Shown here: piece by piece, positions 1,311 to 58,211 of the stretch
Layout: each line of letters begins with the position of its first letter
Numbering within the stretch: the first letter of the stretch is position 1
Source of the DNA: an uncultured Alcanivorax sp.
GTDB lineage: Bacteria > Pseudomonadota > Gammaproteobacteria > Pseudomonadales > Alcanivoracaceae
DNA length: 64,000 nt
Reading direction: 5' to 3'
Assembly: GCF_947258575.1 (NCBI RefSeq)
Contig: NZ_CAMYIV010000005.1
Location: forward strand, 248,001-312,000
The notes under the pieces: model-generated
Told to the model about the DNA's origin: nothing
What the model saw: the letters and a program-made list of their open reading frames with translations, nothing else
Databases searched by the model: none
Position numbers and translations under genes: made by a program

Positions 1311-1676
1311 TCCTGGGCTTGTGGCCGTGCCGTTTCAGCGTGTATGGGCGCCGAAACTCTGGTTCGCATTGCGGATAACAGTGCCGGTCTCGTGCCCGTT
1401 ACTGCCACCGGGCAAGACCAAAGGGGACCGGGGGACAAAGCCTCCAGTCAGCACAGGCGCGCGATTATGCCAGAAAAGGAAATCAGTGGCGATTCCCCCT
1501 TGGACCGGGTGGTCACGGCGCGGCAGTCAGTGAACAGTTAATAGTTAACAGTGAATAGTTGCGCGATCCGGCCCGGGGTCGCCTGAAACGCAAGAGGCCG
1601 CGTCCATGGCTCGGGCGCGGCCTCTTGCGTTTCAGCCCCTGAGGGCCTGTTTCGCGTCGCTGTTAACTGTTCACTA
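1311..1676. other. Intergenic region pckA-hslO with composite repeat
   Basis: No gene is supported here. The region holds the pckA leader and the composite heptad-repeat/hairpin element described separately (1529-1682). A long open frame on the plus strand that crosses pckA into this gap is an antisense shadow. Confidence 0.7.
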
Positions 1677-1682
1677 TTAACT
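1529..1682. repeat. Heptad inverted-repeat element A with central hairpin
   Basis: The left arm (1529-1560) is four and a half tandem 7-mers: AGTGAAC, AGTTAAT, AGTTAAC, AGTGAAT, AGTT. The right arm (1659-1682) is the complementary set GTTAACT, GTTCACT, ATTAACT. Between them is a perfect 20-bp stem (1583-1602 with 1616-1635) carrying the GCAAGAGGCCGCG motif. The hslO stop codon (TTA at 1677-1679 on this strand) is part of the right arm. It could act as a terminator or mRNA 3'-end structure, but there is no T-tract. Confidence 0.85.
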
Positions 1683-2531
1683 GCTTTCCCGGATCATCGC
1701 CGCCAGATCCACCGCATCAAAGCGTTCCTGGTTGCGGCAGAAGTCGCAGGTCAGGGTCACTTCGCCGTCTTCGTCCAGCAGGGTCTGCAATTCATTGCTG
1801 CCCAGGGACAGCAAGGCATTGCGGTTGCGGTCCCGGGAGCAGGTGCAGCCGAACTGCAGGGCCTGGGCGTCGGGCAGCTGTGGCGGGGTGTCGTGGAACA
1901 AGCGGTGGAGGATGGTCTGGTCGTCCAGGTTGAGCAGCTCTTCCATTTTCAGGGTGCCGGCGAGGGCTTCCAGGTGCTCCCACATCTGTGTGTTGGCGTC
2001 GCTGCTGGCCAGCTGGTTGGGCAACCGCTGCAGCAGCAGGCCGGCGGCCCGGTTGTTGCCGCTGGCCAGCCACAGGCGGGTAGGGAGTTGTTCGGACTGG
2101 CGGAAGTAGGCTTCCAGGCACTGGGCCAGGGAGTTGCCGGCCAGGGGCACGATGCCCTGATATTGCTTGCCCTGGTCCGGGGTGATGGTGATGACCATGT
2201 TGCCATCGCCAATGAGGGTCTGGATGTCGCCGTGGCTCCAGTCCTGGCCGTCGCTGTGGCGGGCCAGGGCACGCAACTCGCCCTCGTTGGTGCACTCGGC
2301 CAGCAGCAGGGATACCGGGCCCTTGCCCTGGGCCTGCAGTGCCAGGCGGCCCTTGAATTTCAGGGTGCTGGCCAGTAATGCCACAGCGGCCACCGCCTCG
2401 CCGATCAATCCCTGTACTGCCAGTGGGTAGTTATGCCCTTCAATAATACGGGTGACGCTGCTTTCCACCTGCACCAGTTCGCCGCGGATATCGGAGTCGG
2501 GGAACAGGAAGCGTTGTTTGTGATCTTGCAT
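1677..2531 (-). CDS. hslO: Redox-regulated chaperone Hsp33
   Basis: Cytoplasmic holdase chaperone, inactive in its reduced zinc-bound form and activated by disulfide formation under oxidative stress. The 284-residue length is normal for the family. The C-terminal zinc site is intact: C229-x-C231 and C262-x-x-C265. The ATG at 2531 has AGGA about nine bases upstream. It follows hslR and yrfG on the same strand with short gaps, an order shared with E. coli, so the three probably form one heat-shock operon. The last codons AGT TAA lie inside a heptad repeat arm, so the final serine and the stop are supplied by repeat sequence. Confidence 0.97.
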
Positions 2532-2603
2532 GGTTGTGTCCTGAGGGCTGTCACTGTGGTTCGCTATGTCTTTCAGCTGCCTTTAATGGGGGCACGATAG
2601 CGG

Positions 2604-2993
2604 TTATTCCAGGTTGTCTCTCTTGAAGCGCTGGATATCCCGGCGTTCCTTCTTGCTGGGCTTGTGGTCCGGTGCTGCGGCGGCGGCCCGTGCCAGCTTG
2701 CGTTGCTCGCTGCTCTGTTCCCGGCGGCTGCGGCTTTGTTCGGTTTCCTGGTAGAGAGTCTGGGCCACGCTGGCGGGGCCGCGCTTGCTGCTCAGGCCTT
2801 CTACTATTACCTCGAAATGTTCGGTGCCCTTGGTAATGGCAATGGTCTGCCCGGGCTGCACATTCTTGCTGGGTTTGGCCTTGCTGCCATCAATCTGCAC
2901 CTTGCCGCCTTCGATGGCGGCCTTGGCCAGGCTGCGGGTCTTGAAGAAACGCGCCGCCCACAGCCAGGAGTCGATACGAACGGTCTCGCTCAC
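2604..2993 (-). CDS. hslR: Ribosome-associated heat shock protein 15, S4 domain
   Basis: Small RNA-binding protein that binds stalled 50S subunits carrying nascent chains and helps recycle them after heat shock. An S4 domain fills residues about 5-70 (RIDSWLWAARFFKTRSLA, then GGKVQIDG), followed by a basic, Arg/Lys-rich tail as in E. coli Hsp15. The 129-residue length is normal. The start is GTG at 2993, 10 nt after the yrfG stop, with GAGAG upstream; no ATG gives a better N-terminus. Co-transcription with yrfG and hslO is likely. Confidence 0.95.
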   Translation of the reverse strand: MSETVRIDSWLWAARFFKTRSLAKAAIEGGKVQIDGSKAKPSKNVQPGQTIAITKGTEHFEVIVEGLSSKRGPASVAQTLYQETEQSRSRREQSSEQRKLARAAAAAPDHKPSKKERRDIQRFKRDNLE

Positions 2994-3003
2994 GGCATTT
3001 CTC

Positions 3004-3657
3004 TCATGGTAAGACCTGCAGAAAATCGTCGATGGCCGGGAACGGGTCGGTATGGTCCCGCCTGGGCAGGCTGGAATCCGGGTGCAGGATACTCACCGGC
3101 TGGCCGATGCCGTAAAGCTGGGCGCTGTGAAGTACCGGCAGGGAGTCATCCACCAGCAGAGCGCGGGCCGGGTCGAAGGGCAGGTGGCGTTGCAGGTGCT
3201 GCCAGAAGGACTGGGCTTCCTTGGCGTGGCCATAATCGTGGCTGGAGACGATTTCATCGAAATAGCGGTCGATGCCGGTACGCTCTACCTTCAAGTCCAG
3301 GGCATCACGATGGGCGTTGGTGACCATGATGACCTGTTTGTCGGACTCCTTCAGTGCCTGCAGAAACGTGTCCGCCCCGGGGCGCACAGCGATGCGATCG
3401 CCGGCTTCGCGTTTCAGGCGGGCGATTTCCAGGCCCAGCTCCGCGGTCCAGAAATCCAGGCAGTACCAGTTCAGGGTGCCCAGATGACTGGTGATCCAGT
3501 CGTGGATGATGCGGTCGGCCTCGGCCCGGTCCAGCCCCTGCTGGCGGGCGTAGCACTCGGGGACATGTTTCTGCCAGAACCAGTTATCGAACTCCAGGTC
3601 GAGCAGGGTGCCGTCCATATCCAGTAGCACGGTGTCGACGGATTGCCAGTCAATCAT
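3004..3657 (-). CDS. yrfG: HAD-family GMP/IMP nucleotidase YrfG
   Basis: Haloacid-dehalogenase-fold phosphatase; the E. coli homologue removes phosphate from GMP and IMP. Motif I is DMDGTLLD near residues 13-20, motif II is VTNAHRDAL (about 112-120), and motif III/IV includes the LLVDDSLPVL stretch. The length of 217 residues fits. The ATG at 3657 has AGGAAA upstream. It is the first gene of a yrfG-hslR-hslO unit and is divergent from nudE across a 65-bp gap, which should hold promoters for both directions. Confidence 0.93.
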   Translation of the reverse strand: MIDWQSVDTVLLDMDGTLLDLEFDNWFWQKHVPECYARQQGLDRAEADRIIHDWITSHLGTLNWYCLDFWTAELGLEIARLKREAGDRIAVRPGADTFLQALKESDKQVIMVTNAHRDALDLKVERTGIDRYFDEIVSSHDYGHAKEAQSFWQHLQRHLPFDPARALLVDDSLPVLHSAQLYGIGQPVSILHPDSSLPRRDHTDPFPAIDDFLQVLP

Positions 3658-3722
3658 GAATTTCCTGCGTATTCGGGTTAGTCTTCGGCCTTAAATGATT
3701 GCCGCGAGATCTGACGCTGATT

Positions 3723-4268
3723 ATGGATGAGAAACCGGAGATTCTCGACACCCGACTGGTGGCAAAAAGCCGCCTGTTCGGAATCGAAGAGCTGCACCTG
3801 CGTTTCCGTAACGGGGTGGAACGTACCTATGAGCGCCTGCGCACCCCGCCCATCGCGGCGGTAATGATGGTGCCGCTGCTGGATGACGACACCGTGGTAA
3901 TGATCCGCGAGTATGGCGCCGGTACCGAAAGTTACGAGCTGACCCTGCCCAAGGGGGCCTACGAACACGGCGAGGACTGGCGCGATGCGGCCAACCGGGA
4001 ATTGAAGGAAGAAGCCGGTTATGGTGCCCGCCGCCTCACCCTGATGAAGGACATGACCCTGTCGCCGGGTTATATGGGCCACCGCATCAAGGTGGTGCTG
4101 GCCGAAGACCTGTATGAAGAATCCCTGCCCGGGGACGAACCGGAAGAGCTGGAAGTACTCACCTGGAAACTGTCCGATCTGGATCGCCTGATCGAGCGGG
4201 ATGACGTGACGGAAGCCCGGGTGATCGCGGCGCTGCTGATGGCCAAGCGGTTGCTGGAACAACGCTGA
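3723..4268 (+). CDS. nudE: ADP compounds hydrolase NudE (Nudix)
   Basis: Nudix hydrolase that cleaves ADP-ribose, Ap3A and NADH into mononucleotides. The Nudix box runs from GAYEHGEDW to RELKEEAGYGA (about residues 79-104 of the chosen frame). The frame is open from TTG 3699, but ATG 3723 gives MDEKPEILDTRLVAKSRLF, which matches the N-terminus of the E. coli enzyme, so it is preferred. It precedes cysQ on the same strand, as in many gammaproteobacteria (nudE-cysQ), and a short GTAGGAG inverted repeat separates the two. Confidence 0.94.
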   Translation: MDEKPEILDTRLVAKSRLFGIEELHLRFRNGVERTYERLRTPPIAAVMMVPLLDDDTVVMIREYGAGTESYELTLPKGAYEHGEDWRDAANRELKEEAGYGARRLTLMKDMTLSPGYMGHRIKVVLAEDLYEESLPGDEPEELEVLTWKLSDLDRLIERDDVTEARVIAALLMAKRLLEQR

Positions 4269-4278
4269 TAATTACGCC

Positions 4279-4297
4279 GTAGGAGTGGCGCTCCTAC
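4279..4297. repeat. Short GTAGGAG inverted repeat
   Basis: GTAGGAG (4279-4285) pairs with CTCCTAC (4291-4297) over a 5-nt loop, between nudE and cysQ. A longer element carrying the same GTAGGAGCG motif lies at 46993-47083, so this is probably a member of a small dispersed palindrome family. Confidence 0.6.
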
Positions 4298-4330
4298 AGG
4301 TGCCAAAATCTGAATCACAGGAAAACAGAA

Positions 4331-5146
4331 ATGACCGACTTTAATACCCTGCTGGAACCGCTCGCCGAGATTGCCCGTGAAGCGGGTGATGCCATTCTGA
4401 CGGTGTACGAGCGTGACGACCTGGGGGTGGAAACCAAGGACGACAAATCGCCGATCACCGAAGCGGATATGGCAGCACACAAGATTATCGAAGCGCGGCT
4501 GCAGGCGCTGACGCCGGATATCCCGGTGTTTTCCGAAGAGTCCGGCGGTATTGCCTACGCGGATCGCAAGGACTGGCCCCGTTTCTGGCTGGTGGATCCG
4601 CTGGATGGCACCAAGGAGTTCATCAAGCGCAATGGCGAGTTCACCGTGAACATCGCTCTGGTGGAAGGCGATACCCCGGTGTTGGGCGTCGTGCATGTAC
4701 CGGTAACGGCAGTGACCTACCTGGGTGGCCATGGTGTGGGTGCCTATAAAGAGGAAGGCGGTGAGCGCAAGCCGATCCAGTGCCGCGCCCGCACCACCCC
4801 GGTGGTGATGGTAGCCAGTCGCAGCCACGGCGGCGAAGCGGTGGAAAAGCTGGAAGCCTTTATCCGCGAGGAAGTGGGTGAGGTAGAGCGGGCCTCCATG
4901 GGCTCGTCCCTGAAGTTGTGTCTGGTTGCTGAAGGCAGCGCGGACATTTATCCGCGCCTGGCGCCCACCAGCGAATGGGATACGGCTGCGGCCCACGCGG
5001 TGGTCACCGCCGCCGGCGGGGTCGTGGTGAATACCGCCTTTGAACCGCTGCAGTACAACAAGGAAGACATCCTCAATCCGCACTTCCTGGTGCTGGGGCA
5101 GAGCATCGACGAATGGCGCTTTATCGCCCCGGCGATTGCAGGGTAA
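4331..5146 (+). CDS. cysQ: 3'(2'),5'-bisphosphate nucleotidase CysQ
   Basis: Inositol-monophosphatase-fold enzyme that hydrolyses 3'-phosphoadenosine-5'-phosphate, a by-product of sulfate assimilation and acyl-carrier-protein maturation. The metal-binding motifs are clear: SEESGG near residues 73-78, DPLDGTKEF about 93-101, and WDTAAAHAV about 218-226. Length of 271 residues is usual. The ATG at 4331 follows ACAGGAAAAC. It lies downstream of nudE, so one nucleotide-salvage transcript is plausible. Confidence 0.96.
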   Translation: MTDFNTLLEPLAEIAREAGDAILTVYERDDLGVETKDDKSPITEADMAAHKIIEARLQALTPDIPVFSEESGGIAYADRKDWPRFWLVDPLDGTKEFIKRNGEFTVNIALVEGDTPVLGVVHVPVTAVTYLGGHGVGAYKEEGGERKPIQCRARTTPVVMVASRSHGGEAVEKLEAFIREEVGEVERASMGSSLKLCLVAEGSADIYPRLAPTSEWDTAAAHAVVTAAGGVVVNTAFEPLQYNKEDILNPHFLVLGQSIDEWRFIAPAIAG

Positions 5147-5153
5147 AGGCGTA

Positions 5154-5240
5154 TTCACCACAGAGGACACGGAGTTCACAGAGAAAACAGACCTGTAATA
5201 GGTCTTGGCTCAGTGTTCTCCGTGCCCTCTGTGGTAAAAA
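5154..5240. repeat. Nested inverted repeat, ACCACAGAGG type
   Basis: Outer arms 5157-5174 and 5218-5235 (ACCACAGAGGACACGGAG against its complement, one mismatch) enclose an inner hairpin, AGACCT (5189-5194) with AGGTCT (5200-5205). It lies directly after cysQ. The outer arm with an inner hairpin recalls the heptad elements, but the arms here are not 7-periodic. Confidence 0.75.
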
Positions 5241-5258
5241 ACAACCAAGGAGTCATCC

Positions 5259-6143
5259 ATGAGCACAATGCGTGAACTGCGATTTGTCAGTGATGGCCAG
5301 TCCTGCCGGGGGGATCTGTATCTCCCCGAGGGTGACGGCTCTTTCCTGACCGTGGTCATGGGCCACGGTTTTGGTCTGACCAAGGCCTGTGGGCTGGAGC
5401 CGTTTCGTGATGCTTTTTTAAAGGCCGGCTATGCGGTATTCCTGTTCGACTACCGGCACTTCGGTGAAAGCGAAGGCATGCCCCGTCAGGTGTTGTTGCC
5501 CAACCGGGAGGTGGCAGACTGGCAGGCGGCGCTGGCTTGTGTGCGCAAGCAAGAGCAAGTGGACAACCAGCGCATTGTGCTGTGGGGAACGTCCTTTGGT
5601 GGCGGCCTGGTGACTGCAGTGGCAGCCCGTGAGCCGGATGTGGCCGGCATCATTGCCCAGTGCCCGATGATGGATGGGCTGTCGTCAGTGCTGGAAGTGG
5701 TGCGCTATGCAGGCATTGGCCAGGCCATCAAGATGACGGGGCTGGGCCTCTGGGATGTGATCAGCAGCCTGCTGGGGCTGGGGCCGCGCATGCTGCCATC
5801 TGCAGGCAAGCCCGGGGAGCTGGCGGCCATGTCCAGCCATGATGCCTACGACGGTTATACCGCCCTGATGCCTGAAGGGGTGCCAAATGAAGTCGCCGCC
5901 CGTATTGGTCTGGTGCTGCCAATGTTCCGGCCCGTGACGCAGGCGGCCAAGGTGACTTGCCCGGCGCTGGTGCTGATCTGTGAAACCGATACCGTGGCGC
6001 CCGCGTCCGCCGCAGAAAAAGCCGCCGCGATGATGGCGAAGCCCACCGTGAAACGCTACCCCATTGGGCATTTTGATATCTATCAGGGTGAGGCCCGGGA
6101 TATCAGTGTGGCGGATCAGCTGGAATTTCTTCAGGGTTTGTAG
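5259..6143 (+). CDS. Alpha/beta hydrolase
   Basis: Predicted serine hydrolase of 294 residues. The oxyanion-loop motif HGFG is at 36-39 and the nucleophile elbow GTSFGG at 110-115 (Ser112). The acid is probably in CETDTVAP and the catalytic His in GHFDIY near the C-terminus. A cap-like insert of about 80 residues follows the nucleophile strand. There is no signal peptide, so it is cytoplasmic. ATG 5259 has AAGGAG upstream. Substrate unknown; position just before a cluster of monooxygenases suggests an ester or lactone hydrolase acting on Baeyer-Villiger products, but this is inference from neighbourhood only. Confidence 0.85.
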   Translation: MSTMRELRFVSDGQSCRGDLYLPEGDGSFLTVVMGHGFGLTKACGLEPFRDAFLKAGYAVFLFDYRHFGESEGMPRQVLLPNREVADWQAALACVRKQEQVDNQRIVLWGTSFGGGLVTAVAAREPDVAGIIAQCPMMDGLSSVLEVVRYAGIGQAIKMTGLGLWDVISSLLGLGPRMLPSAGKPGELAAMSSHDAYDGYTALMPEGVPNEVAARIGLVLPMFRPVTQAAKVTCPALVLICETDTVAPASAAEKAAAMMAKPTVKRYPIGHFDIYQGEARDISVADQLEFLQGL

Positions 6144-6149
6144 CGTGGG

Positions 6150-6300
6150 CAAGTTTCAAGTTTCAAGTTGCAACACGCCATACGTTTGCCCTTGATTTCA
6201 AACGCATGAGGCCGCGCTCCAGTCATTGGGCGCGGCCTCATGCGTAGCGGCTGACAGCAGCGCTGATCCGCGTTGAAACTTTCAACTTGTAACTTGCGAC
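6150..6300. repeat. Heptad inverted-repeat element B with central hairpin
   Basis: The left arm is CAAGTTT, CAAGTTT, CAAGTTG, CAACACG (6150-6177). The right arm (6269-6299) is CGCGTTG, AAACTTT, CAACTTG, TAACTTG. The inner stem is CGCATGAGGCCGCG (6203-6216) with its exact complement (6231-6244). It lies between two convergent genes, 7 nt after the hydrolase stop and 3 nt beyond the stop of the small membrane gene. Confidence 0.85.
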
Positions 6301-6302
6301 TC

Positions 6303-6545
6303 TCAGAACGGCAGCAAGGCCATCAGATCCAGAGTCAGTTGATCTGCAGCCACCAGTGCGCCGGTGGCGATCATGCTCAGGTTGATGCAGGGCAGGATCA
6401 GGCCAACGGCGAACAGGTTGACCATGCCGGGCTGGCGGATGCGACCGCTCCATAACAGCAGGCTGATAATGACGGCGCAGGACATCGGTATCCATAGCCA
6501 GGAGTGAGAGGCGAACGTATCCCCGAAGGCAGTCAGATCGAACAT
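6303..6545 (-). CDS. Small predicted membrane protein
   Basis: An 80-residue protein with two predicted membrane helices, roughly residues 15-32 (LWIPMSCAVIISLLLW) and 41-65 (MVNLFAVGLILPCINLSMIA). No known family is recognised. Support: a plausible AAGGG site about 8 nt before ATG 6545, an AT-rich promoter-like stretch just upstream, and a stop that abuts a heptad repeat arm as do other genes in this window. It could be an inner-membrane accessory protein; no function is proposed. Confidence 0.5.
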   Translation of the reverse strand: MFDLTAFGDTFASHSWLWIPMSCAVIISLLLWSGRIRQPGMVNLFAVGLILPCINLSMIATGALVAADQLTLDLMALLPF

Positions 6546-6982
6546 GCCGGTACCCTTATAATTATAGTGTGTTATCTATCCCCGTACGCGCCTTTCCCCT
6601 GTGGCGCGCAGGCAGTATGCAGAAGTGGGCAGGGCAGCAATGTGTATGAGATCACAAATCGGTGATGGCACGATGATATTGGATCTCCCGTACCACTTTA
6701 TTATGAAAATCAGCGAGTAATAGTCGGCCGCGGATCCTGTGGCCGCCATGCGGGTAGACAGGCGGTCAGGGAAAGTAGACCCAGTGTTTATGCCGGCTGC
6801 GCCACACCTGCCGTCCCTAGCGGCACTTTTTCCCGTCTCCAGGGCCAATTAACGGCCTGTTTTGGCCTTTTCTCATACCCGCCAGTACGGCTATTCTGTC
6901 TGCCAGTTAACGGTGCCATTGAATGATGTCAATGTTTTGCACTGCCGAGACCAGGCGGCCCAAGGGCTGGAGGTAAAAGAGA
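6546..6982. promoter_or_regulatory. Intergenic region upstream of AlmA-like gene 1
   Basis: A 437-bp gap between divergent genes with no supportable coding sequence. It should carry promoters for both. The clearest symmetric site is ATCAC-n6-GTGAT at 6651-6666, a candidate operator. A 90-codon open frame on the minus strand (6576-6848) has no protein-like features and is rejected. Confidence 0.35.
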
Positions 6983-8491: not shown

Positions 8492-8494
8492 AGC

Positions 8495-8581
8495 GCAAGC
8501 CGCAAGCCGCAAGCCGCAAGCGGTTTGTTCCGGTTATGAAGTGCAAGAGGCCGTGCCCGATCCCCGGGCGCGGCCTCTTGC
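8495..8581. repeat. Heptad element C: GCAAGCC repeats plus hairpin
   Basis: Three perfect tandem GCAAGCC units and one GCAAGCG (8495-8522) start 3 nt after the AlmA-like stop codon. They are followed by the stem GCAAGAGGCCGTGCCCG (8543-8559) with its near-complement (8565-8581; one G-T pair). A right heptad arm is weak or lost. It lies between convergent genes. Confidence 0.8.
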
Positions 8582-8624
8582 CTTGTGACTCACTGCTGTT
8601 TCTGACGCGTTGCAGTTGGCCGCT

Positions 8625-9590: not shown

Positions 9591-9705
9591 GGTGACTCCT
9601 TGCGAAAACAGGGTGTGGACGCCCAGGCGGGTGTCCGCAGGAGAGAAATTACACCTTAAAAAGCCGGTAATTGCGATGGCTGAAAGCGTCGCGTGTCAGG
9701 CGGCG

Positions 9706-22647: not shown

Positions 22648-22738
22648 GTAAGAGGCCGCTCCCTCACATGGGCGCGGCCTCTTGCATTTCAGGACAGGAA
22701 AGCCCGCTCCGCGAACTGTTCACTATTCACAGTTAACT
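22648..22738. repeat. Heptad element D: hairpin plus right arm only
   Basis: The hairpin GTAAGAGGCCGC (22648-22659) pairs with GCGGCCTCTTGC (22674-22685). The right arm GTTCACT, ATTCACA, GTTAACT (22718-22738) runs into the stop codon of the isocitrate dehydrogenase gene (TTA at 22733-22735). No left arm is left after hemH. Confidence 0.8.
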
Positions 22739-23752
22739 GTTTTGTTCCAGCCTGCGAACCAGCTCATCGGTAAACTCACTGGTGCTGGCGCGCCCGCCCA
22801 GGTCCGGGGTGACGATCTCGCCTTCGCCCACTACCTGACGCACGGTTCGGCGCAGTTGTTTGGCCTTGTCGTGCAGTTCGATGTAATCGAGCATCAATGC
22901 CCCGGCCAGCATGATGGCGGTGGGGTTGGCGATGCCCTGGCCGGCAATATCCGGGGCGCTGCCGTGGACCGCTTCGAACAGGCCGCCGTGCTCGCCGATG
23001 TTGGCGCCGGGAGCCACGCCCAGGCCACCGATCAGGCCGGCACACAGGTCGGAGAGGATGTCGCCGAACAGGTTGGTGGTGACGATTACATCGAAGCGGT
23101 GCGGGTTCATGGCCAGCTGCATGGCGCAGGCGTCCACGATCATTTCTTCATGCTCCAGCTGCGGATAGTCTTCACGCACCTTACGGGCCACGTCGAGAAA
23201 CAGCCCCGAGGTGGACTTCATGATATTGGCCTTGTGCACCACCGTGACCTTCTTGCGGCCCTGCTTCACCGCCGTTTCGTAGGCAAAGCGCAGCAGGCGC
23301 TCGGATTCCGTGCGGGTAATACGGCTGCGCAGCTCGGCGGTTTCGCCGTCCTCACTGACGGTCTGCCCCAGGCCGGAATAGATGCCTTCGATATTTTCCC
23401 GCACGGTCATGATGTCCACGTTGTCGTAGCGGGATTTGACCCCGGGAATGGACAGGGCCGGGCGCACGTTGGCGAACAGGTCGAAGGTCTTGCGCAGGGT
23501 CACGTTTACCGAGGTGAAGCCACCCCCCACTGGCGTGGTGATGGGGCCTTTAAGGGCCAGGCGATTGCGCCGGAGCACCGCCAGGGTCTCTTCCGGTACC
23601 AGATCCAGTCCTTTGTCCAGCGCTGCCTGGCCGGCAATGGCATATTCGAATTCGAGTCCGCAATCCAGAGCTTTCAGTACCCGTACCGTGGCATCCACGA
23701 TGTCCGGTCCGATTCCATCGCCGGGGATAACGGTTACGGTGTTCTTGTTCAT
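22733..23752 (-). CDS. NAD-dependent isocitrate dehydrogenase (IDH3-like)
   Basis: Beta-decarboxylating dehydrogenase of 339 residues acting on isocitrate in the TCA cycle. It has GDGIGPDIV at the N-terminus, the substrate loop [19 protein letters not shown], the tyrosine-bearing [13 protein letters not shown] and the cofactor segment [20 protein letters not shown]. These match mitochondrial NAD-IDH type enzymes better than LeuB, where the substrate loop differs. The frame is open from 23830, but ATG 23752 has GGAGG at good spacing. It follows soxR on the same strand with a 123-bp gap. LeuB activity is a remaining alternative. The last codons AGT TAA are in a heptad repeat. Confidence 0.88.
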
Positions 23753-25430: not shown

Positions 25431-26197
25431 TGAAATTGAACATGTACTCCATTCGTGCCATCTACAAATTTGAAATGGCGCGAACCTGGCGCACCTTGAT
25501 GCAGAGCGTGGCGTCGCCGGTGATTTCCACCTCCCTGTATTTTGTGGTGTTCGGGTCTGCCATCGGTTCGCGCATGGTGGAAATTGGTGGCGTCAGTTAC
25601 GGGGCCTTTATTATTCCCGGCCTGATCATGCTTACCCTGATGACACAGAGCATTTCCAATGCCTCGTTCGGTATCTATATGCCCACGTTTTCGGGAACCA
25701 TCTATGAAGTGCTGTCGGCGCCGGTCTCCTATGTGGAGATCGTCATCGGTTATGTGGGAGCTGCTGCGACCAAGTCATCGATACTGGGCGTTTTGATATT
25801 GATCACGGCGCGCTTCTTTGTGGACTATGAGGTTCAGCATCCCTTCATGATGTTCGGCTTCCTGCTGCTTACCGCGATTACCTTCAGCCTGTTCGGGTTC
25901 ATTATCGGCATCTGGGCGGATACCTTCGAGAAATTGCAGATCATTCCCCTGATGATCATTACCCCGCTGACCTTTCTGGGCGGCAGCTTCTATTCCATCG
26001 ACATGCTGCCACCGTTCTGGCAAACCGTGACCCTGTTCAATCCGGTGGTTTACCTGATCAGTGGCTTCCGCTACAGCTTCTTCGGCACCGCGGACGTCCA
26101 TATCGCCATCAGCATCGGCATGACCTTGTTTTTCCTGGCCATCTGCATCGCTCTGGTGTGGTGGATCTTTCGGACGGGGTACCGGTTGAAGAGTTAA
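25430..26197 (+). CDS. ABC-2 transporter permease (YadH-like)
   Basis: The 255-residue membrane subunit of the same exporter. Six hydrophobic segments are seen (for example [66 protein letters not shown], and [22 protein letters not shown]). [12 protein letters not shown] is a typical ABC-2 loop. The start overlaps the ATPase stop. The C-terminus RLKS ends with AGT TAA, which is also the first heptad of a repeat element, so the repeat provides the last codon and stop. Confidence 0.94.
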
Positions 26198-26288
26198 CAG
26201 CTAACAGTGAATAGTTGACAGCTCGCGAAAATCTCCTTTTTAGATCCAGACGACAGAGGCCGCGCCCAATTTGTGGTCGCGGCCTCTG
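26192..26288. repeat. Heptad element E: left arm plus hairpin
   Basis: Tandem AGTTAAC, AGCTAAC, AGTGAAT, AGTTGAC, AGCTCGC (26192-26226), overlapping the permease stop codon. A hairpin follows: CAGAGGCCGCG (26254-26264) with its complement (26278-26288). No right arm is seen before the convergent reductase gene. Confidence 0.8.
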
Positions 26289-33585: not shown

Positions 33586-33744
33586 AAGTTAAAAGTTGAA
33601 AGTTCAAAGTTAAAAAGCGCGAATTGGTCGGGGCTAGCCGGAAAGGCCTTGCCCGAGCTTTGAGGATGAATCGCGGGCACGCCCTGCCCGTTTCCCGACC
33701 ATTCAGTCCGCGCTTTTTAACTTTACACTTTGAACTTTCAACTA
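33586..33744. repeat. Heptad inverted-repeat element F
   Basis: The left arm is AAGTTAA, AAGTTGA, AAGTTCA, AAGTTAA (33586-33613), ending AAAGCGCG. The right arm (33713-33744) is TTAACTT, TACACTT, TGAACTT, TCAACTA, preceded by CGCGCTTT. The arms pair. The interior lacks the GGCCGCG hairpin but has another inverted pair, TGGTCGGG with CCCGACCA. It lies between the convergent AlmA-like 2 and ychJ genes. Confidence 0.85.
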
Positions 33745-45750: not shown

Positions 45751-45822
45751 AGTCGGGTAAGGTCAGCGCAAGCGCGGCGCTTGCAACGCAGCCTGCGGCC
45801 TCGAAACCTGGCGGCTTTCCAT

Positions 45823-45843
45823 TATCAATTATTCATTATCAAT
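45823..45843. repeat. Heptad element G: TATCAAT repeats
   Basis: Three tandem 7-mers, TATCAAT, TATTCAT, TATCAAT (45823-45843). They overlap the stop (45829-45831) and last codons of the small periplasmic protein gene, which thus ends KIDNE. No paired arm or hairpin is seen. Confidence 0.65.
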
Positions 45844-46170
45844 TTTTAATTGCCCTTCACAGCGCCAGGTCCAGGCTTCCAGCTCAATGCGTTGAATCCC
45901 GCGATGATGATTATCCATCAGAAACACGCGCCGGTCTTTCAGGACTGCCCGGTTGCCGTCGGCTTTTTTGATGGCCTTGAACAGTTTCTTTTTGGCGTTG
46001 TTTTCGATCCAGGCGTCACTGAACAGCAGGCCCTGAAGTTTGCCGCCGGTTTCTATAGTAACGGTATCGCCGCCCCGGCAGTCGCTGGGTGCGTTTTCCA
46101 GAAGATAGACCTTGTCGGCCTGGCCGGCTGAGGCCAGTAATAACAGCGCGATACTTAGTAAGCTGCGCAT
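45829..46170 (-). CDS. Small exported protein of unknown function
   Basis: A 113-residue protein with a Sec-type signal peptide (MRSLLSIALLLLASAGQA, cleavage after SAGQA). The mature part has two cysteines, probably forming one disulfide (DCRGG and WRCEG), and is otherwise basic and mixed. ATG 46170 has AGGAAA upstream. No family is recognised. It lies 18 bp after the aldo/keto reductase, so co-transcription is possible. Confidence 0.7.
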   Translation of the reverse strand: MRSLLSIALLLLASAGQADKVYLLENAPSDCRGGDTVTIETGGKLQGLLFSDAWIENNAKKKLFKAIKKADGNRAVLKDRRVFLMDNHHRGIQRIELEAWTWRCEGQLKIDNE

Positions 46171-46976: not shown

Positions 46977-46992
46977 GAAGTCTCCTGAAACA

Positions 46993-47083
46993 TTCTCGCT
47001 GTAGGAGCGCCGCTTGAGGCGCGAATTGTACTTGGGAAAGCCGTCGCAAGCAGGTTCGCGCCTCAAGCGGCGCTCCTGCAGGG
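46993..47083. repeat. GTAGGAGCGCCGCTTGAGGCG inverted repeat
   Basis: Arms GTAGGAGCGCCGCTTGAGGC (from about 47001) and its complement GCCTCAAGCGGCGCTCCTGC (to about 47081) form a long dyad between the AKR and FAD-oxidoreductase genes. It is a widespread palindrome type in gammaproteobacteria. Confidence 0.75.
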
Positions 47084-47086
47084 GGA

Positions 47087-48280: not shown

Positions 48281-48416
48281 GGCTCACCATCAGAGAAAGT
48301 TGCCGCTATGCTAGCATAGGCTGCGCTGCGGGCACGCAAGCAGGCAACAGGCATTACCCTGCTTTTCCTGTAGCGTTATGCATGCAAGCAGTCCTCACAC
48401 CGAGACAAGAGCGCCT

Positions 48417-49688
48417 ATGCAAACCCTTTACTCCTTTCTTTGGTATTTACTGCTCCCGTTACTGTTTTTGCGCCTTTGGCTGCGCGGTCGGCAGGCGCCG
48501 GCCTATCGTCAGCGCTGGAAGGAACGCATGGCCTGGGGGTATCGCCCCGGCACCCTGAAAAACAGCATCTGGGTGCATGCGGTGTCGGTGGGGGAAACCC
48601 TGGCGGCAGTGCCGATGATCGAGCGGTTGCTGGCGGATTATCCGGATACGCCATTGCTGGTGACCACGACGACACCCACCGGTTCGGAGCGGGTGAAAGC
48701 CCTGTTCGGAGATCGGGTGACCCATGTCTATTGCCCCTGGGAGTTGCCCACTGCGCTGAACCGTTTTCTGCGAGCGTTTGATCCGAAAACGGTGATCGTG
48801 CTGGAAACCGAATTGTGGCCCAACCTGTGTGCAGCGGTGAAACGTCACGGCGCCAAGCTGATGCTGATGAACGGGCGCTTGTCGGAAAAAAGCTACCGGG
48901 GCTACAGCAAGCTTCCCCGCCTGGTGCGACCGATGATGGCGCGGTTCGATGCCCTGGCGGTGCAGACCCCGGTGGAACGGGAGCGTTATATCGCCCTGGG
49001 GGCCTGGCCGGAACGGGTCCATGCCATCGGCAGCGTGAAATTCGACATGAGCCTGGACGATACGGTCCGGCAGGCGGCGGCGAGTTTGCGGGCGGAAATT
49101 GGCGAGCGCCCGGTATGGATCGCTGCCAGTACGCACCCTGGCGAGGATGAGCCTGTACTGGTAGCCCACCAGGCATTGCTGCAAGTGCTGCCCAATGCGC
49201 TGCTGGTGCTGGTGCCCCGGCATCCGGAACGGTTCGACAGCGTGGCGCAGTTGATTCGCCAGCAGGGGCTCGCGCTGGCCCGGCGCAGCAGGCAAGAGGC
49301 AATCTCGGCCGACACCGGGGTTTACCTGGCCGATACCATGGGCGAACTGCTGATGCTGTTCGGTGTGGCGGATGTGGCGTTTGTCGGTGGTTCGCTGGTG
49401 CCGGTGGGCGGGCACAATCTGCTGGAGCCGGCCGGCTGGGGCAAGCCGGTCGTTACCGGGCCGCACCTGCACAACTTTACCGCCATCGCCGGGCTGCTGG
49501 ATGATGCCGATGCCCTGGCCCTGGTGGACAATGCGGATGCCCTGGCGATTGCCTTGCAGGCCCTGTTCCGATATCCGGATCAACGCCAGCGTCAGGGGCA
49601 GGCGGCCGCAGCGGTGGTGGAAGCCAATCGTGGGGCGCTGGAGAAAGGGCTTGAACTGATTAGTGAACAGTTAACAGTGAATAGTTAA
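48417..49688 (+). CDS. waaA: 3-deoxy-D-manno-octulosonic acid transferase
   Basis: Adds Kdo residues to lipid A at the cytoplasmic face of the inner membrane. 423 residues from ATG 48417. An N-terminal membrane anchor (LWYLLLPLLFLRLWL) is followed by the catalytic motif HAVSVGETLAAVPMIERL (Glu near residue 60), VLETELWPNL and, in the C-terminal half, VGGSLVPVGGHNLLEPA. The frame is open from 48378, but ATG 48417 matches family N-termini. The last eight codons, ending in NS, come from heptad repeats (AGT GAA CAG TTA ACA ... AGT TAA), a clear case of the repeat extending the protein. Confidence 0.95.
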   Translation: MQTLYSFLWYLLLPLLFLRLWLRGRQAPAYRQRWKERMAWGYRPGTLKNSIWVHAVSVGETLAAVPMIERLLADYPDTPLLVTTTTPTGSERVKALFGDRVTHVYCPWELPTALNRFLRAFDPKTVIVLETELWPNLCAAVKRHGAKLMLMNGRLSEKSYRGYSKLPRLVRPMMARFDALAVQTPVERERYIALGAWPERVHAIGSVKFDMSLDDTVRQAAASLRAEIGERPVWIAASTHPGEDEPVLVAHQALLQVLPNALLVLVPRHPERFDSVAQLIRQQGLALARRSRQEAISADTGVYLADTMGELLMLFGVADVAFVGGSLVPVGGHNLLEPAGWGKPVVTGPHLHNFTAIAGLLDDADALALVDNADALAIALQALFRYPDQRQRQGQAAAAVVEANRGALEKGLELISEQLTVNS

Positions 49689-49801
49689 CAGCGACGCGAA
49701 AGGACTTTTACAGCATTAAACGCAAGAGGCCGCGCCCAGTGTATGGGCGCGGCCTCTTGGCTTTCAGAGAATGGTTGCGCTCACACGCGCAACTATTCAC
49801 T
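49662..49801. repeat. Heptad inverted-repeat element H with central hairpin
   Basis: The left arm AGTGAAC, AGTTAAC, AGTGAAT, AGTTAAC (49662-49689) codes for the end of waaA. The hairpin is CAAGAGGCCGCGCCC (49723-49737) with its exact complement (49745-49759). The right arm, GCAACT plus ATTCACT (to 49801), is short and lies 5 nt from the tolC stop. Convergent genes. Confidence 0.85.
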
Positions 49802-49806
49802 GCTCT

Positions 49807-51213: not shown

Positions 51214-51318
51214 TCTGGTGCACTCTTTCCTGGGTGAGTTTGGTCATTATAGTACTGGGTGGTACAGAAAATTGATACGGCTTCTGTCACACCGGTGTCG
51301 CGGTTGTTTGGCCGATAG

Positions 51319-53877
<2,559 letters not shown>

Positions 53878-53881
<4 letters not shown>

Positions 53882-54345
53882 AACGCCGCGATCGCTACCG
53901 GCTGGATTTTCGGGCCCTGATGAGCCAGTGCGAGGAAAACTACGCCCGCATGCTGCCGTTGATGAACGCCATGGGTGAGCGCGACAGCATGGATGTGGAG
54001 CTGGGTCACACCCAGCATACTCATACCTTGCAACTGCGGGTGCTGGAACGCTCCCCTTATACCACCACCGTACGCCTGGAAGACCAGGAGTTGCTGGATG
54101 TGTTGCCGGCCTCACGCCTGACCGTGCGGCTGTATCACGATGCGCGCCTGGCTGAAGTCACCGAGGCGCGTCCTTTTCGGCGGGTCAATGCCCGCTATGC
54201 CTATCCCAATCGCCATATGCACCAGCGTGATGAAAAAGTGCAGTGGAACCGTTTCCTGGCCGAGTGGTTGCGCCATGTCCACGACCATGGTCGTGATGCA
54301 GGCAACGACTGGCGCCAGCAGGTGACCGGTAATTCCTCAAGGTAG
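53878..54345 (+). CDS. yqiB: DUF1249 family protein YqiB
   Basis: A 155-residue basic protein found next to nudF and cpdA in many gammaproteobacteria. The core LDFRALMSQCEENYARMLPLM and YPNRHMHQRDEKVQWNRFLAEWLRH define DUF1249. ATG 53878 overlaps the nudF stop. Function is not established. The frame could extend upstream, but ATG 53878 gives the family's usual N-terminus. Confidence 0.92.
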
Positions 54346-54437
54346 CTGTAAAGAAATGCTAACCATGTCCTGATCTTGGACGTCTTTCCTAGAAAAGTGC
54401 CATCATCTTGGTTATAAGTGATTCATGAGCGTTGAGG

Positions 54438-54457
54438 GAATGCTCGGGAGAGCATTC
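54438..54457. repeat. Leader hairpin before cpdA
   Basis: GAATGCTC (54438-54445), loop GGGA, GAGCATTC (54450-54457): a perfect 8-bp stem in the 160-bp gap between yqiB and cpdA. GAGCATTCGC also occurs in the TetR block at 14758; this may be coincidence. Confidence 0.5.
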
Positions 54458-54504
54458 GCTGCCTCCCAAACGGGAATAATAAATCGAGGACGGGAGCGGG
54501 GATC

Positions 54505-55311
54505 TTGACGCAGCAGTTGCAGCCCCTTCGAGTGGTGCAGTTATCAGACTGCCATCTGTTTGCCGATACACAAGGCAAGCTGTTGGGCCTGAATACCCAG
54601 TTCAGTCTGGATAAGGTATTGGAGCTGATCCGTGGTGAGCAGCCCAGTCCGGACCTGATTCTGGCCACCGGGGATCTGTCCCAGGATGCTTCCTTTGAGT
54701 CGTATCAGCGGCTGGAGCAGGCCCTTTCTGCCTTCCCGGCACCGGTATACTGGCTGGAAGGCAATCACGACAAGCCCGCCCCCATGCTCCAGGCCCTGGA
54801 TTGCCATCGCGAGCGCATCAGTCCCTGTGTGCTGGAGATCGGCAACTGGACCATCATCATGCTCGACTCCACCATCCCCGGTGAAGTCCCTGGCGACCTG
54901 TTTGACGAAGACCTGAAATTTCTCGATGACGCCCTGGCCAACGCCCGTGGCGAACATCTGATGGTATGCCTGCATCACCATCCGGTGCCCATGGAGTGTG
55001 CCTGGCTGGACACCCAGGTGGTGGGTAGTGCCGAGCAGTTTTTCGCCGTCATCGACCGCCACCCCCGTGTGCGCGCCATTATCTGGGGCCATGTGCATCA
55101 GGAATATGATGACCTGCGCAACGGCGTACGCCTGCTGGCAGTGCCCAGCACCTGCGTGCAGTTCAAACCGAAAAGCGAAGACTTCGCCGTCGACGACAGC
55201 AACCCGGGCTACCGCTGGCTGGACCTGTACCCGGACGGTCGCATCGACACCGCTGTCAGCCGGGTGGAGGGGATTACCTTTGAGGTGGACTTCAGCGTCA
55301 AGGGATACTGA
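54505..55311 (+). CDS. cpdA: 3',5'-cyclic-AMP phosphodiesterase
   Basis: Class III metallophosphoesterase degrading cAMP. 268 residues. Metal-site motifs in order: QLSDCHLF, ATGDLSQD, GNHDKP, CLHHHPVP and WGHVH. The start is TTG 54505 with GGGAGCGGGG upstream; no ATG nearby keeps the QLSDCHLF strand. It follows yqiB after a gap with a hairpin, and its stop is 2 nt before the AGTGAAC heptads of element I. Confidence 0.94.
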   Translation: MTQQLQPLRVVQLSDCHLFADTQGKLLGLNTQFSLDKVLELIRGEQPSPDLILATGDLSQDASFESYQRLEQALSAFPAPVYWLEGNHDKPAPMLQALDCHRERISPCVLEIGNWTIIMLDSTIPGEVPGDLFDEDLKFLDDALANARGEHLMVCLHHHPVPMECAWLDTQVVGSAEQFFAVIDRHPRVRAIIWGHVHQEYDDLRNGVRLLAVPSTCVQFKPKSEDFAVDDSNPGYRWLDLYPDGRIDTAVSRVEGITFEVDFSVKGY

Positions 55312-55313
55312 TC

Positions 55314-55467
55314 AGTGAACAGTTAATAGTGAATAGTTAACAGCGAAACCGCTTGACTCCTCAACCGGGCCTGCCAGCATCATCACTGTTCACTGTTCAC
55401 TGTTCACTGTTCACTGTTCACTGTTCACTGTTCACTGTTCACTGTTCACTGTTCACTGTTCACTGTT
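55314..55467. repeat. Heptad element I: 12 perfect CACTGTT repeats
   Basis: The left arm is AGTGAAC, AGTTAAT, AGTGAAT, AGTTAAC, AGCGAAA (55314-55348). The right arm (55384-55467) is 84 bp made of exactly 12 CACTGTT units. It lies between cpdA and yqiA. The perfect tandem array is a strong candidate for length variation by slippage. Confidence 0.92.
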
Positions 55468-55492
55468 TGATCCTCCGACCTGTTGAATTCCT

Positions 55493-56080
55493 ATGGCTCC
55501 AGAAACCTCTCTCATCTATATCCACGGCTTCAACAGTTCCCCGGCGTCCCACAAGGCGACCCGGTTGCGAGAGGTGTTTGAGCGTGCCGGTTGTCCGGAG
55601 CGGTTGCACGTGCCGGCGCTGCCGGTGGAGCCCAAGGCGGCCATGGCGGAGCTGGATGCGGTGATTGCCGGGGCCGGTCCGGTGGCGTTGCTGGGCTCAT
55701 CTCTGGGTGGTTTCTATGCTACCTGGCTGGCCGAGCACCATGATTTGCAGGCGGTAATCGTAAATCCTGCGGTTCGACCCTGGCGACTACTGGACAAATA
55801 CACAGGTATCCAGCATAACTATCACACCGGCGAGGCCTGGGAATTCAATCCGGCCTGGCTGGACGAGCTGAAGCGCTATGAAGTGCCGGCCATCAGCCAG
55901 CCGGAAAACCTGCTTCTGCTCACCCAGACCGGCGATGAAACCCTCGATTGGGAAGACGGCTGGGACTATTACGGGGACTGCCACCGCTATTGCGGCTTGG
56001 GTGGCAGCCACGGCTTTGATAACTTTGACGCCTTCATTCCGCTGATACTGCGGTTTTGTGGTATTGAAATACACGCCTGA
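55493..56080 (+). CDS. yqiA: Esterase YqiA
   Basis: Alpha/beta-fold esterase of 195 residues. The N-terminal IYIHGFNSSPASHKA and the nucleophile elbow GSSLGGFYA (Ser in GSSLGG) define the YqiA/UPF0227-type family; catalytic His is in GGSHGFDNF. ATG 55493. It lies between cpdA and parE as in E. coli, and its stop is followed within 10 nt by the CAGACGC heptads of element J. Confidence 0.93.
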   Translation: MAPETSLIYIHGFNSSPASHKATRLREVFERAGCPERLHVPALPVEPKAAMAELDAVIAGAGPVALLGSSLGGFYATWLAEHHDLQAVIVNPAVRPWRLLDKYTGIQHNYHTGEAWEFNPAWLDELKRYEVPAISQPENLLLLTQTGDETLDWEDGWDYYGDCHRYCGLGGSHGFDNFDAFIPLILRFCGIEIHA

Positions 56081-56090
56081 TGCCCGAGGC

Positions 56091-56155
56091 CAGACGCCAG
56101 ACGCTTGATCCTGCCAAGCGTTCAGCGTCTGGCGTCATGCGTCTGGCGCTTCTGG
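56091..56155. repeat. Heptad inverted-repeat element J, CAGACGC type
   Basis: The left arm is CAGACGC twice (56091-56104). The right arm is GCGTTCA, GCGTCTG, GCGTCAT, GCGTCTG, GCGCTTC (56118-56152), in complementary orientation. It lies between yqiA and parE and ends 8 bp before the parE start, so the RNA structure would be close to its ribosome site. Confidence 0.8.
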
Positions 56156-56162
56156 AAAATCT

Positions 56163-58049
56163 ATGGCCAATACGTATACGTCCGAAAATATTGAAGTGTT
56201 GTCGGGCCTCGACCCGGTGCGCAAGCGTCCGGGGATGTACACCGATACCTCCCGTCCCAACCACCTGGCCCAGGAAGTCATCGACAACTCGGTGGATGAA
56301 GCCCTGGCCGGCCATGCCAAATCCATCAAGGTCACCCTGCTGAAAGATGGCGGCGTGGAAGTGGAGGATGACGGTCGCGGCATGCCGGTGGACATGCACC
56401 CGGTTCAGAAGAAGCCCGGGGTGGAAGTGATCCTGTCCACGCTGCATTCCGGCGGCAAGTTCTCCAACAACAACTACCAGTTCAGCGGTGGTCTCCATGG
56501 TGTCGGCGTGTCCGTGGTTAACGCCCTCTCCACCAAGCTGGAAATCCTGGTGAAACGGGACGGCCAGCTGCACCGGATGGAATTCGGTGATGGCGAAAAA
56601 CGCAGCGATCTGGAAGTGGTCGATACCGTCGGCAAACGCAACACCGGCACCATTCTGCGTTTCTGGCCCGACGCCAAGTATTTTGATTCACCGAAGATTT
56701 CCGTTTCCCGGCTCAAGCATCTGCTGCGCGCCAAGGCGGTGTTGTGCCCGGGGTTGCTGGTTACCCTGGACAACCAGGTCAGCGGTGAAACGGATGCCTG
56801 GCAATTCGCTGATGGCCTGATCGAATACCTGCTGGAATCCGGTCGTGGCTGGGAGCGGGTGCCGGATGAGCCCTTCAATGGTGCCATGAGCGCCGAAACC
56901 GAAGCGGCGGACTGGGCGGTGATGTGGCTGCCGGAAGGCGGCGAGCTGGTGCAGGAATCCTACGTTAACCTGATTCCCACCCCCCAGGGCGGCACCCATG
57001 TGAATGGCCTGCGCTCTGGTTTACTGGAAGCCATGCGCGAGTTCTGTGAATTCCGCAACCTGTTGCCCCGTGGCGTAAAGCTGACCCCGGAAGATATCTG
57101 GGACCGGGTTGCCTATGTGCTCAGCGTCAAGATGCAGGACCCGCAGTTCGCCGGCCAGACCAAGGAGCGGCTCAGTTCCCGGCAGACCGCCGCGTTCGTG
57201 TCCGGCGTGGTCAAGGATGCCTTTTCCCTGTGGCTGAATCAGCACACCGATGAAGCAGAGAAGCTGGCGGACCTGTGCATCAACAATGCCCAGAAGCGTC
57301 TGCGGGCCGCCAAGAAAGTCACCCGCAAGAAGATCACCAGTGGTCCGGCGCTGCCCGGCAAACTGGCCGACTGCACCAGCGATGATCCGTCCCAGAGCGA
57401 AATCTTTCTGGTGGAAGGGGACTCGGCGGGTGGCTCTGCCAAGCAGGCCCGGGACCGGGTCTACCAGGCCATCATGCCCCTGCGCGGCAAGATCATGAAC
57501 ACCTGGGAAGTGGACTCCGGCGAAGTGCTGGGCAGCCAGGAAATTCACGATATTGCCGTGGCACTGGGTATCGAGCCGGGCAGTGATGATCTGGGCGGTC
57601 TGCGTTACGGCAAGGTGTGCATCCTTGCCGATGCGGATTCCGACGGCCTGCATATCGCCACCCTGATCTGTGCCCTGTTCCTGCGTCACTTCCCGGCGCT
57701 AGTGAAGAACGGCCATGTGTTCGTGGCCATGCCACCGCTGTACCGCATTGATGTGGGCAAAGAGGTTTACTACGCCCTGGACAAGGAAGAGCGTGCAGGC
57801 GTGTTGGACCGTATCAAGGCCGAAAAGAAGCGCGGCAAGGTCAACGTCACCCGCTTCAAGGGCCTGGGCGAAATGAATCCGCTGCAACTGCGCGAAACCA
57901 CCATGGCGCGAGATACCCGCCGATTGGTGCGCCTGGATGTCACCAGCGGCGATGACACCCACCAGCTCATGGATATGTTGCTGAGCAAGAAGCGCGCCTC
58001 CGATCGCAAGATCTGGCTGGAAGAGAAAGGCAATCTGGCTGAGATTTGA
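56163..58049 (+). CDS. parE: DNA topoisomerase IV subunit B
   Basis: ATPase subunit of topoisomerase IV, which decatenates daughter chromosomes. 628 residues, near the E. coli 630. GHKL ATPase motifs VIDNSVDEALAG and GGLHGVGVSVVNALS; TOPRIM motifs EGDSAGGSAKQARDR and DADSDGLHIATL. The start ATG is 8 bp after element J. The stop TGA supplies the first base of the first heptad of element K, showing the repeat fused to the gene end. Confidence 0.97.
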   Translation: MANTYTSENIEVLSGLDPVRKRPGMYTDTSRPNHLAQEVIDNSVDEALAGHAKSIKVTLLKDGGVEVEDDGRGMPVDMHPVQKKPGVEVILSTLHSGGKFSNNNYQFSGGLHGVGVSVVNALSTKLEILVKRDGQLHRMEFGDGEKRSDLEVVDTVGKRNTGTILRFWPDAKYFDSPKISVSRLKHLLRAKAVLCPGLLVTLDNQVSGETDAWQFADGLIEYLLESGRGWERVPDEPFNGAMSAETEAADWAVMWLPEGGELVQESYVNLIPTPQGGTHVNGLRSGLLEAMREFCEFRNLLPRGVKLTPEDIWDRVAYVLSVKMQDPQFAGQTKERLSSRQTAAFVSGVVKDAFSLWLNQHTDEAEKLADLCINNAQKRLRAAKKVTRKKITSGPALPGKLADCTSDDPSQSEIFLVEGDSAGGSAKQARDRVYQAIMPLRGKIMNTWEVDSGEVLGSQEIHDIAVALGIEPGSDDLGGLRYGKVCILADADSDGLHIATLICALFLRHFPALVKNGHVFVAMPPLYRIDVGKEVYYALDKEERAGVLDRIKAEKKRGKVNVTRFKGLGEMNPLQLRETTMARDTRRLVRLDVTSGDDTHQLMDMLLSKKRASDRKIWLEEKGNLAEI

Positions 58050-58211
58050 GTGGAAAGTTTCAAGTGGAAAGTTGCAACGCGAAGCCAGTTCCTTGTGTGT
58101 TGAAAGGCTATCGCTTCGCGCTGGCCGTTAACGGCGGCACGCGGGCAAGGCTGTTCAGGTTGGCAGGGCTTCTTCCGCGCTTTGCAACTTTGAACTTTCA
58201 ACTTGCAACTC
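58049..58211. repeat. Heptad inverted-repeat element K
   Basis: The left arm is AGTGGAA, AGTTTCA, AGTGGAA, AGTTGCA, ACGCGAA (58049-58083), beginning on the last base of the parE stop. The right arm (58177-58211) is GCGCTTT, GCAACTT, TGAACTT, TCAACTT, GCAACTC. The arms pair. It fills the parE-parC gap, and no GGCCGCG hairpin is inside. Confidence 0.85.

Follow-up and report, generated by a model that had tools for sequence, protein, structure and literature searches.

The 64,000-nucleotide stretch analyzed in this study, hereafter the window, is a segment (C5:248001-312000) of a 3.5-Mb Alcanivorax genome, G000, whose closest named relatives by ParE, each at 99%, are Alcanivorax sp. DSM 26293, a metagenome-assembled genome, and A. 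jadensis T9. Its intergenic gaps carry tandem heptanucleotide arrays, and we found that these arrays are the ends of a small dispersed element, present as mutually inverted copies, or arms, typically of four heptads plus two bases. Most elements are noncoding and about 150 bp long, with a GC-rich central hairpin in a large group of cores; a few (two in G000, at loci fixed across species) carry one gene instead, that of the four-helix-bundle "23S rRNA intervening sequence protein," IVP (PF05635). The association between IVP and heptad arms is near certain. At the two fixed loci, the class of the arms varies with the sequence of the IVP between them and not with the divergence of the flanks. The new part of this work is what the arms belong to, i.e., the enclosure of IVP genes. 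We consider it likely that the system consists of dispersed DNA elements and a cognate protein that recognizes their arms, an economy resembling REPIN-RAYT built from unrelated parts.

G000 contains two PF05635 genes above the cut-off and one weak fragment, and both full-length genes are enclosed by inverted heptad arms. PF05635 was the sole Pfam match in the four IVPs scanned, which also matched TIGR02436, "four helix bundle protein." Flanks of 220 bp (family and phylum loci) or 260 bp (plasmid loci) were examined for inverted arms with lag 7 the strongest, which were present at 91 of 107 usable IVP loci overall. The arms were found at 47 of 48 family loci, which do not amount to 47 independent events because several are close relatives, at 28 of 43 phylum loci, and at all 16 plasmid loci (16 fetched of 25 hit records), the latter from Spirochaetota, Bacteroidota, Cyanobacteriota, Bacillota, and Chloroflexota. 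Family loci L173, L177, and L306 and phylum loci L195 and L197 (L labels denote loci and G labels genomes) were left out as too short, and L340 and L341, identical copies within one genome, were each counted. Phylum loci were taken first from the 30 best-scoring matches, and a further 15 with weaker scores passed less often. None of 194 control intervals moved 900 bp either way passed the same test (the last 10 plasmid loci had no such control), and a single pass was recorded among 123 short-gene controls. That the same arm type encloses IVP genes in several phyla suggests that IVP recognizes the arms. Insertion in rRNA was rejected as the setting of these genes: Rfam, applied to 20 of the first 30 phylum loci, returned no rRNA and one signal recognition particle RNA. 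Of the 46 family genomes, 29 have IVP (16 of 17 in the window's genus, g1; 12 of 13 in another genus, g3; and 1 elsewhere). Three further observations concern individual loci. Inverted arms at L193 and L204 have 8 as their strongest period, the heptad-armed IVP gene of an Anabaena cylindrica plasmid (L357) lies between cas2 and cas1, and those of L217, L218, L355, and L361 lie amid restriction-like operon genes (hsdS/hsdR, helicase/methyltransferase, DUF1156/Swt1-HEPN).

The first-pass annotation of the window described heptamers in eleven gaps (A to K), with a period that stays constant while the word varies, and this single design was upheld. Arrays were confirmed at all eleven sites: Tandem Repeats Finder assigned period 7 to A to C and F to K (the left arm of K came out as 14), and the D and E arrays were read directly in the sequence. 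Autocorrelation at lag 7, the check that the annotation had proposed, revealed a genome-wide excess in both samples of G000. In the first sample (461 kb in 21 pieces, 20 of them picked partly around known hits, which biases array density), 46 arrays scoring at least 13 were found at lag 7 and none at lags 4 to 6 and 8 to 13; scores were also recorded at multiples of 7 and at some lags of the coding type. Shuffles of this sample in 3-base blocks gave no array at lag 7 and, together with the empty neighboring lags, exclude chance. In the less biased sample (the window and 15 other stretches; 350,288 bp), arrays scoring at least 12 numbered 0, 0, 3, 37, 0, 3, 1, and 0 at lags 4 to 11. The pattern for the AGTKAAY class, AGTKAAYAGTKAAYAGT, had 301 matches in the 3.5 Mb of G000, overlapping registers counted, and none when reversed.

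We surveyed 218 gaps of at least 20 bp (and up to about 900 bp) in the 350,288-bp sample for inverted arm pairs, using gene calls from our own codon-usage script, which are not an annotation. Arm pairs were present in 21 gaps, 6 of them within the window and 15 in the other 286 kb, and 6 further gaps held a single array only. Extrapolation gives about 180 to 210 arm pairs for the genome, the figure of about 180 coming from the 286 kb outside the window. A typical arm is about 30 nt, or four heptads plus two bases, and is usually paired as an inverted repeat; the median arm measures 30 nt beside IVP genes and 29 nt in the noncoding elements, whose median span is 153 bp. When the cores of 69 elements from G000 and related genomes were clustered, the largest cluster held 24 that have a GC-rich hairpin in common, and this cluster is found with seven consensus words, three being AGTKAAY variants.

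The placement of the arrays bears on the proposal, made with the initial description, that they are mRNA 3'-end structures made by slippage; on this view, the arms would pair in the transcript and protect or terminate the message. A stop codon was the nearest gene end for 47 of 64 arrays (score of at least 11, 461 kb), 44 of these 47 lying within 25 nt of it, and only 4 of the 64 were inside called genes. Paired arms occurred in 16 of 139 co-directional and 5 of 41 convergent gaps and in none of 38 divergent gaps, and seven folded window elements had z values of -3.1 to -12.1 against mononucleotide shuffles, all in favor of this proposal. However, mismatches on the sense strand, counted over three sets, comprised 49 G.U and 70 A.C, and the absence of a G.U excess makes the wobble test negative for RNA-level pairing of the arms. 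In addition, a protein gene lies between such arms in many phyla, arm class tracks IVP sequence, and a hairpin does not need direct period-7 repeats. The mRNA proposal was thus not supported, and we regard it as highly improbable; recognition at the DNA level is favored because the mismatches show no G.U excess over A.C.

The relationship between arm class and IVP could be followed at two loci, glyA-IVP-nrdR (n = 23) and cysC-IVP (n = 11), where place and orientation are constant and arm class varies. Arm distance tracked IVP distance given flank distance (partial rank r of 0.62 at glyA and 0.56 at cysC), a correlation reached by 0 of 2000 permutations at each locus, and did not track flank distance given IVP distance (-0.07 and -0.29, respectively). 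The match extends across genera, in that the IVPs of the AGTKAAY group in g1 (L179, L307) are 80 to 86% identical to those in g3 (L180, L181, L308, L309), and the g3 IVPs of L294 and L297, with AGTTGAC/AGTTGAT arms, are 75 to 80% identical to the AGTTGAC group of g1. Away from the IVP loci, we counted four classes in the 17 genomes of g1, subtracting 6 for the IVP locus, and the class of the resident glyA-IVP was enriched among dispersed arms (rank sum of 191 compared to a permuted 136 ± 16.5; p = 0.00025; 16 IVP-bearing genomes). A dispersed array in G038 repeats the arm of the cysC-locus IVP over 29 bases, and the IVP of G274 has GGGATTC arms, a class shared by the single array found in 100 kb away from that IVP. 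The AGTKAAY pattern was found only in g1 and g3 among 40 sampled genomes, and several IVP-positive genomes are without it.

We considered whether the heptad elements could be independent repeats in which IVP genes merely land as targets. The noncoding elements are indeed far more numerous than IVP copies, and nested elements show that an element can take an insertion. This explanation seems quite unlikely to us, since IVPs of one group share an arm class at the same site even in different genera, and G029, the sole member of the genus without IVP, had zero counts in all four classes tested.

Comparison of orthologous gaps, another check that had been suggested, showed that the arms are not conserved unique sequence. 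In related species, the corresponding gap is often occupied by an element that differs in class or core, or is without any; gap J is conserved in L031 to L033, so some gaps are stable among close relatives. In the parE-parC gap, AGTTTCA/AGTTGCA arms are found in the window, L032, and L033, ACGCTTC arms in L034, and GTCGGAC arms in L035 to L038, while in L031 a PF13366 gene lies there between period-9 arms. The K element matches one that lies elsewhere in G040 (83% over 156 bp), in a gap other than parE-parC, and the parE-parC gap of G040 itself holds a related core in the opposite orientation. Elements of CGAGTT class are nested within AGTKAAY-class elements at L149 and L151 (G008), and in G027 half an element lies within a REP-like palindrome. 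The earlier suggestion of a mobile or repair-made element is therefore backed by a related element in a nonhomologous gap, by nesting, and by class change, and we infer from these comparisons that the elements move.

Two more specific readings of these gaps were not adopted. For gap I, retention of the core with both arms changed is not claimed: the core scored 25 against L031 (shuffle maximum, 20), and the reading was dropped because the scores against L033 (17; maximum, 23) and L047 (16; maximum, 25) fall below the shuffle maxima. For K, the reverse complement of the core scored 64 against L033 and 72 against L032, compared to a forward score of 21 and shuffles with means of 22 to 23 and maxima of 41 (L033) and 48 (L032). 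This core is only about two-thirds identical beside ParE and ParC proteins that are 97 to 99% identical, so replacement by an oppositely oriented related element is as likely as inversion in place, which we do not claim.

The turnover of the gaps also bears on a possible host role for IVP, as a regulator or nucleoid protein whose regulatory binding sites, the arms, are spread by ordinary recombination. IVP sits at fixed co-directional loci and the arms lie at gene ends, as such a role would have it, and a role in translational regulation was proposed by MacGregor for TAACTGA repeats (PMC4679880). We nevertheless hold this explanation to be unlikely. Class, core, or the presence of an element differs in many orthologous gaps between relatives, which means that few gene-specific sites are conserved, and related cores occur in unrelated gaps.

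Several points weigh against dispersed elements with a cognate protein, the reading that we prefer. The commonest tested class in G000, AGTKAAY, matches neither resident IVP (AGTTGAC, AAGCTAC), and G008, G027, G038, and G041 have 149 to 297 AGTKAAC matches beside a glyA-IVP of another class, their other IVPs having been examined only in part. The permutation of class counts was not corrected for phylogeny, and class labels and search patterns were picked after the arms had been seen. The co-occurrence of IVP and lag-7 arrays, which were found in 80-kb samples of 8 of 9 IVP-positive and 1 of 6 IVP-negative genomes, speaks for this reading but is likewise uncorrected for phylogeny, and four Alcanivoracaceae among the nine IVP-positive genomes hold 26 of the 30 arrays. 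The arm test failed at 15 of 43 phylum loci, two of these having period 8. Arms can also change one at a time: a gap of G038 aligns with G000 in its core, right arm, and right flank but has a left arm of a different class. The orthologous gaps compared yielded neither a clean empty site nor a target duplication, and transposition is for that reason not demonstrated. We also know of no catalytic motif in IVP.

With these points in mind, we propose that IVP recognizes the heptad arms and that the specificity of IVP and the arm word coevolve. Binding of the arms by IVP, dependence of the noncoding copies on it, and the route of copying are inferred. A matching IVP, present now or until recently, would be what keeps noncoding copies in a genome and lets them spread. 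The constant period could reflect the spacing of the contacts that an IVP oligomer makes on the arm, in which case the word may change and the step may not. Copying would most likely follow a DNA-level, hairpin-based route with host enzymes. Two solved relatives were found, 2RLD and 2GSC (XCC0516); each structure has five chains, as a pentamer would, and we conjecture that four heptads plus two bases provide five anchor positions, one per IVP subunit. IVP would then embody a heptad code able to evolve, its period set by the oligomer and its word by the side chains. We advance more tentatively, as an extension that may well prove wrong, that the arm is read by a pentamer of IVP, one step every 7 nt, that heptad-armed IVP elements with noncoding satellites are widespread, and that the rRNA intervening sequence (IVS) and the cyanobacterial, Xanthomonas, and Beggiatoaceae heptamers are local faces of them.

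In REPIN-RAYT systems, short inverted noncoding repeats are paired with RAYT, a Y1 HUH transposase. The elements described here share with these systems the many short inverted noncoding copies in gene gaps, single or few protein genes that keep to fixed loci and have these repeats on either side, and a dispersed repeat class that matches the repeats of the protein gene (at the p = 0.00025 given above, with exceptions such as AGTKAAY in G000). They differ in both parts: the enclosed gene encodes a four-helix bundle in place of an HUH Y1 transposase, and a heptad array of changing word stands where those systems have a conserved palindrome. Miniature inverted-repeat transposable elements are similarly small, noncoding, and dispersed with inverted ends; the ends here are heptad arrays of changing sequence, however. 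The compared gaps offered no clean empty site, and no target duplication was seen in them; nor was a transposase identified, no search aimed at one having been made. If the proposed recognition is true, this would be a second repeat-plus-protein economy alongside REPIN-RAYT.

The protein family, in the IVP-bearing copies only, is shared with the 23S rRNA IVS that carries an S23/IVP open reading frame (ORF). The IVS of Coxiella burnetii has a 28-bp stem, and the idea of the IVS as a mobile element with its ORF as a mobility component goes back to Ralph and McClelland (1993), as cited in the same source (PMC4990558). Terminal inverted repeats of roughly 30 bp are thus common to both. In contrast, our elements lie between protein genes and have many noncoding copies, and the accessible part of the IVS literature makes no mention of a heptad structure. 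PF05635 is also described as resembling Avd of diversity-generating retroelements (PMC10053308), from which the present elements differ in carrying a single ORF. If IVP recognizes the arms, the IVS ORF as a mobility factor becomes testable by one binding assay, and natural protein-word pairs are at hand for deciphering the recognition code.

Although the first-pass annotation knew of no named family with this design, heptanucleotide repeats have in fact been published; its claim stands insofar as none was tied to IVP in the literature found, preprints as a whole and most subscription papers lying outside the coverage of that search. Cyanobacterial short tandemly repeated repetitive (STRR) sequences are reportedly heptanucleotide repeats, a finding attributed to Mazel and dated to 1990. 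TAACTGA heptamers are repeated in Beggiatoaceae, and heptamers outnumber the other long repeats of most genomes, for which Mrazek et al. (2007) are cited with a polymerase-slippage idea (PMC4679880). The GGGAATC repeats of Xanthomonas mostly have four units, form inverted pairs (70 in one species and 75 in another), and lie on average 28 nt from the 5' neighboring ORF (PMC4692102). All three, like our arrays, are tandem intergenic heptamers dispersed in a genome. In the TAACTGA and GGGAATC papers, each word is handled separately, as a translational signal and a G-quadruplex, respectively; "four helix" is absent from the main text of PMC4692102, and "four helix bundle protein" is absent from PMC4679880. 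The present association connects two separate puzzles: the heptanucleotide repeats described in several groups, which lack an accepted explanation, and IVP/S23, for which structures exist and a role has not been found.

All elements of the window are located between called protein genes and have no IVP gene of their own. Seven sites had been described as two-armed; A, B, F, I, J, and K are firm in this respect, H is weak, and C, D, E, and G are single arrays. Element A consists of a left arm of the AGTKAAY class (1528-1560, +), a central GC-rich hairpin, GCAAGAGGCCGCGTCC / GGGCGCGGCCTCTTGC (1590-1628, by sequence reading), and an inverted right arm (1657-1683, -). Element B has a left arm of the CAAGTTT class (6149-6177, +), a central hairpin (6204-6243), and an inverted right arm (6269-6297, -). 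At F, the left arm, of the AGTTNAA class (33587-33621, +), faces an inverted right arm (33709-33743, -), and at J, a CAGACGC-class left arm (56082-56105, +) is separated by a short loop from its inverted partner (56124-56147, -). Element K is made up of an AGTGGAA/AGTTTCA-class left arm (58048-58081, +), a core (58082-58177, by core alignment) to which L032 and L033 have an oppositely oriented relative, and an inverted right arm (58178-58211, -). The left arm of I is of the AGTKAAY class (55309-55347, +), and its right arm is expanded, with 12 perfect TCACTGT copies (55383-55467, -); a long expanded right arm is found on the same side of gap I in L036 and L047. At H, a full 30-nt left arm of the AGTKAAY class (49662-49691, +) and a central hairpin (49722-49759, its end read from the sequence) are followed by a right arm of only about 12 nt (49791-49802, -), which failed the paired-arm criterion. 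Left arms at A, B, F, I, and K and right arms at F and K were delimited by Tandem Repeats Finder and the paired-arm survey, the right arms at A and B and both arms of J by the survey, and the left arm of H and right arm of I by Tandem Repeats Finder, which also gave the arrays of C and G. Single arrays comprise four copies of GCAAGCC at C (8494-8521, +), with an adjoining hairpin at 8543-8581; a reverse AGTKAAY-class array at D (22714-22741, -, by sequence reading), with an adjoining hairpin at 22650-22685; a 30-nt AGTTAAC-type array at E (26192-26221, +, by sequence reading); and a TATCAAT-type array at G (45817-45844, -).

A second class of short-tandem-armed gene cassette is formed by PF13366 (GxxExxY) genes, which lie between inverted period-9 arms of the CCACAGAGG type at L031 (11884-12423), L219, L220, and L223. 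PF13366 was rejected as a heptad partner on account of period 9 in L219, L220, and L223 (among the 5 of 13 loci looked at) and in L031; L221, a short contig, has no clear arms at PF13366, and the lag-7 arms of L222 are more than 200 bp from the PF13366 match. REP-like palindromes with the outer word TGTAGGAGC occur at 46977-47086 of the window, in the orthologous gaps, and in a gap of L362 (6289-6353), and between species this outer word is kept at the same gap while the inner stem sequence changes. Finally, positions 54346-54531 of the window, before the gene called at 54532, are unusually conserved across Alcanivorax species, and a leader RNA or a longer reading frame is possible there.

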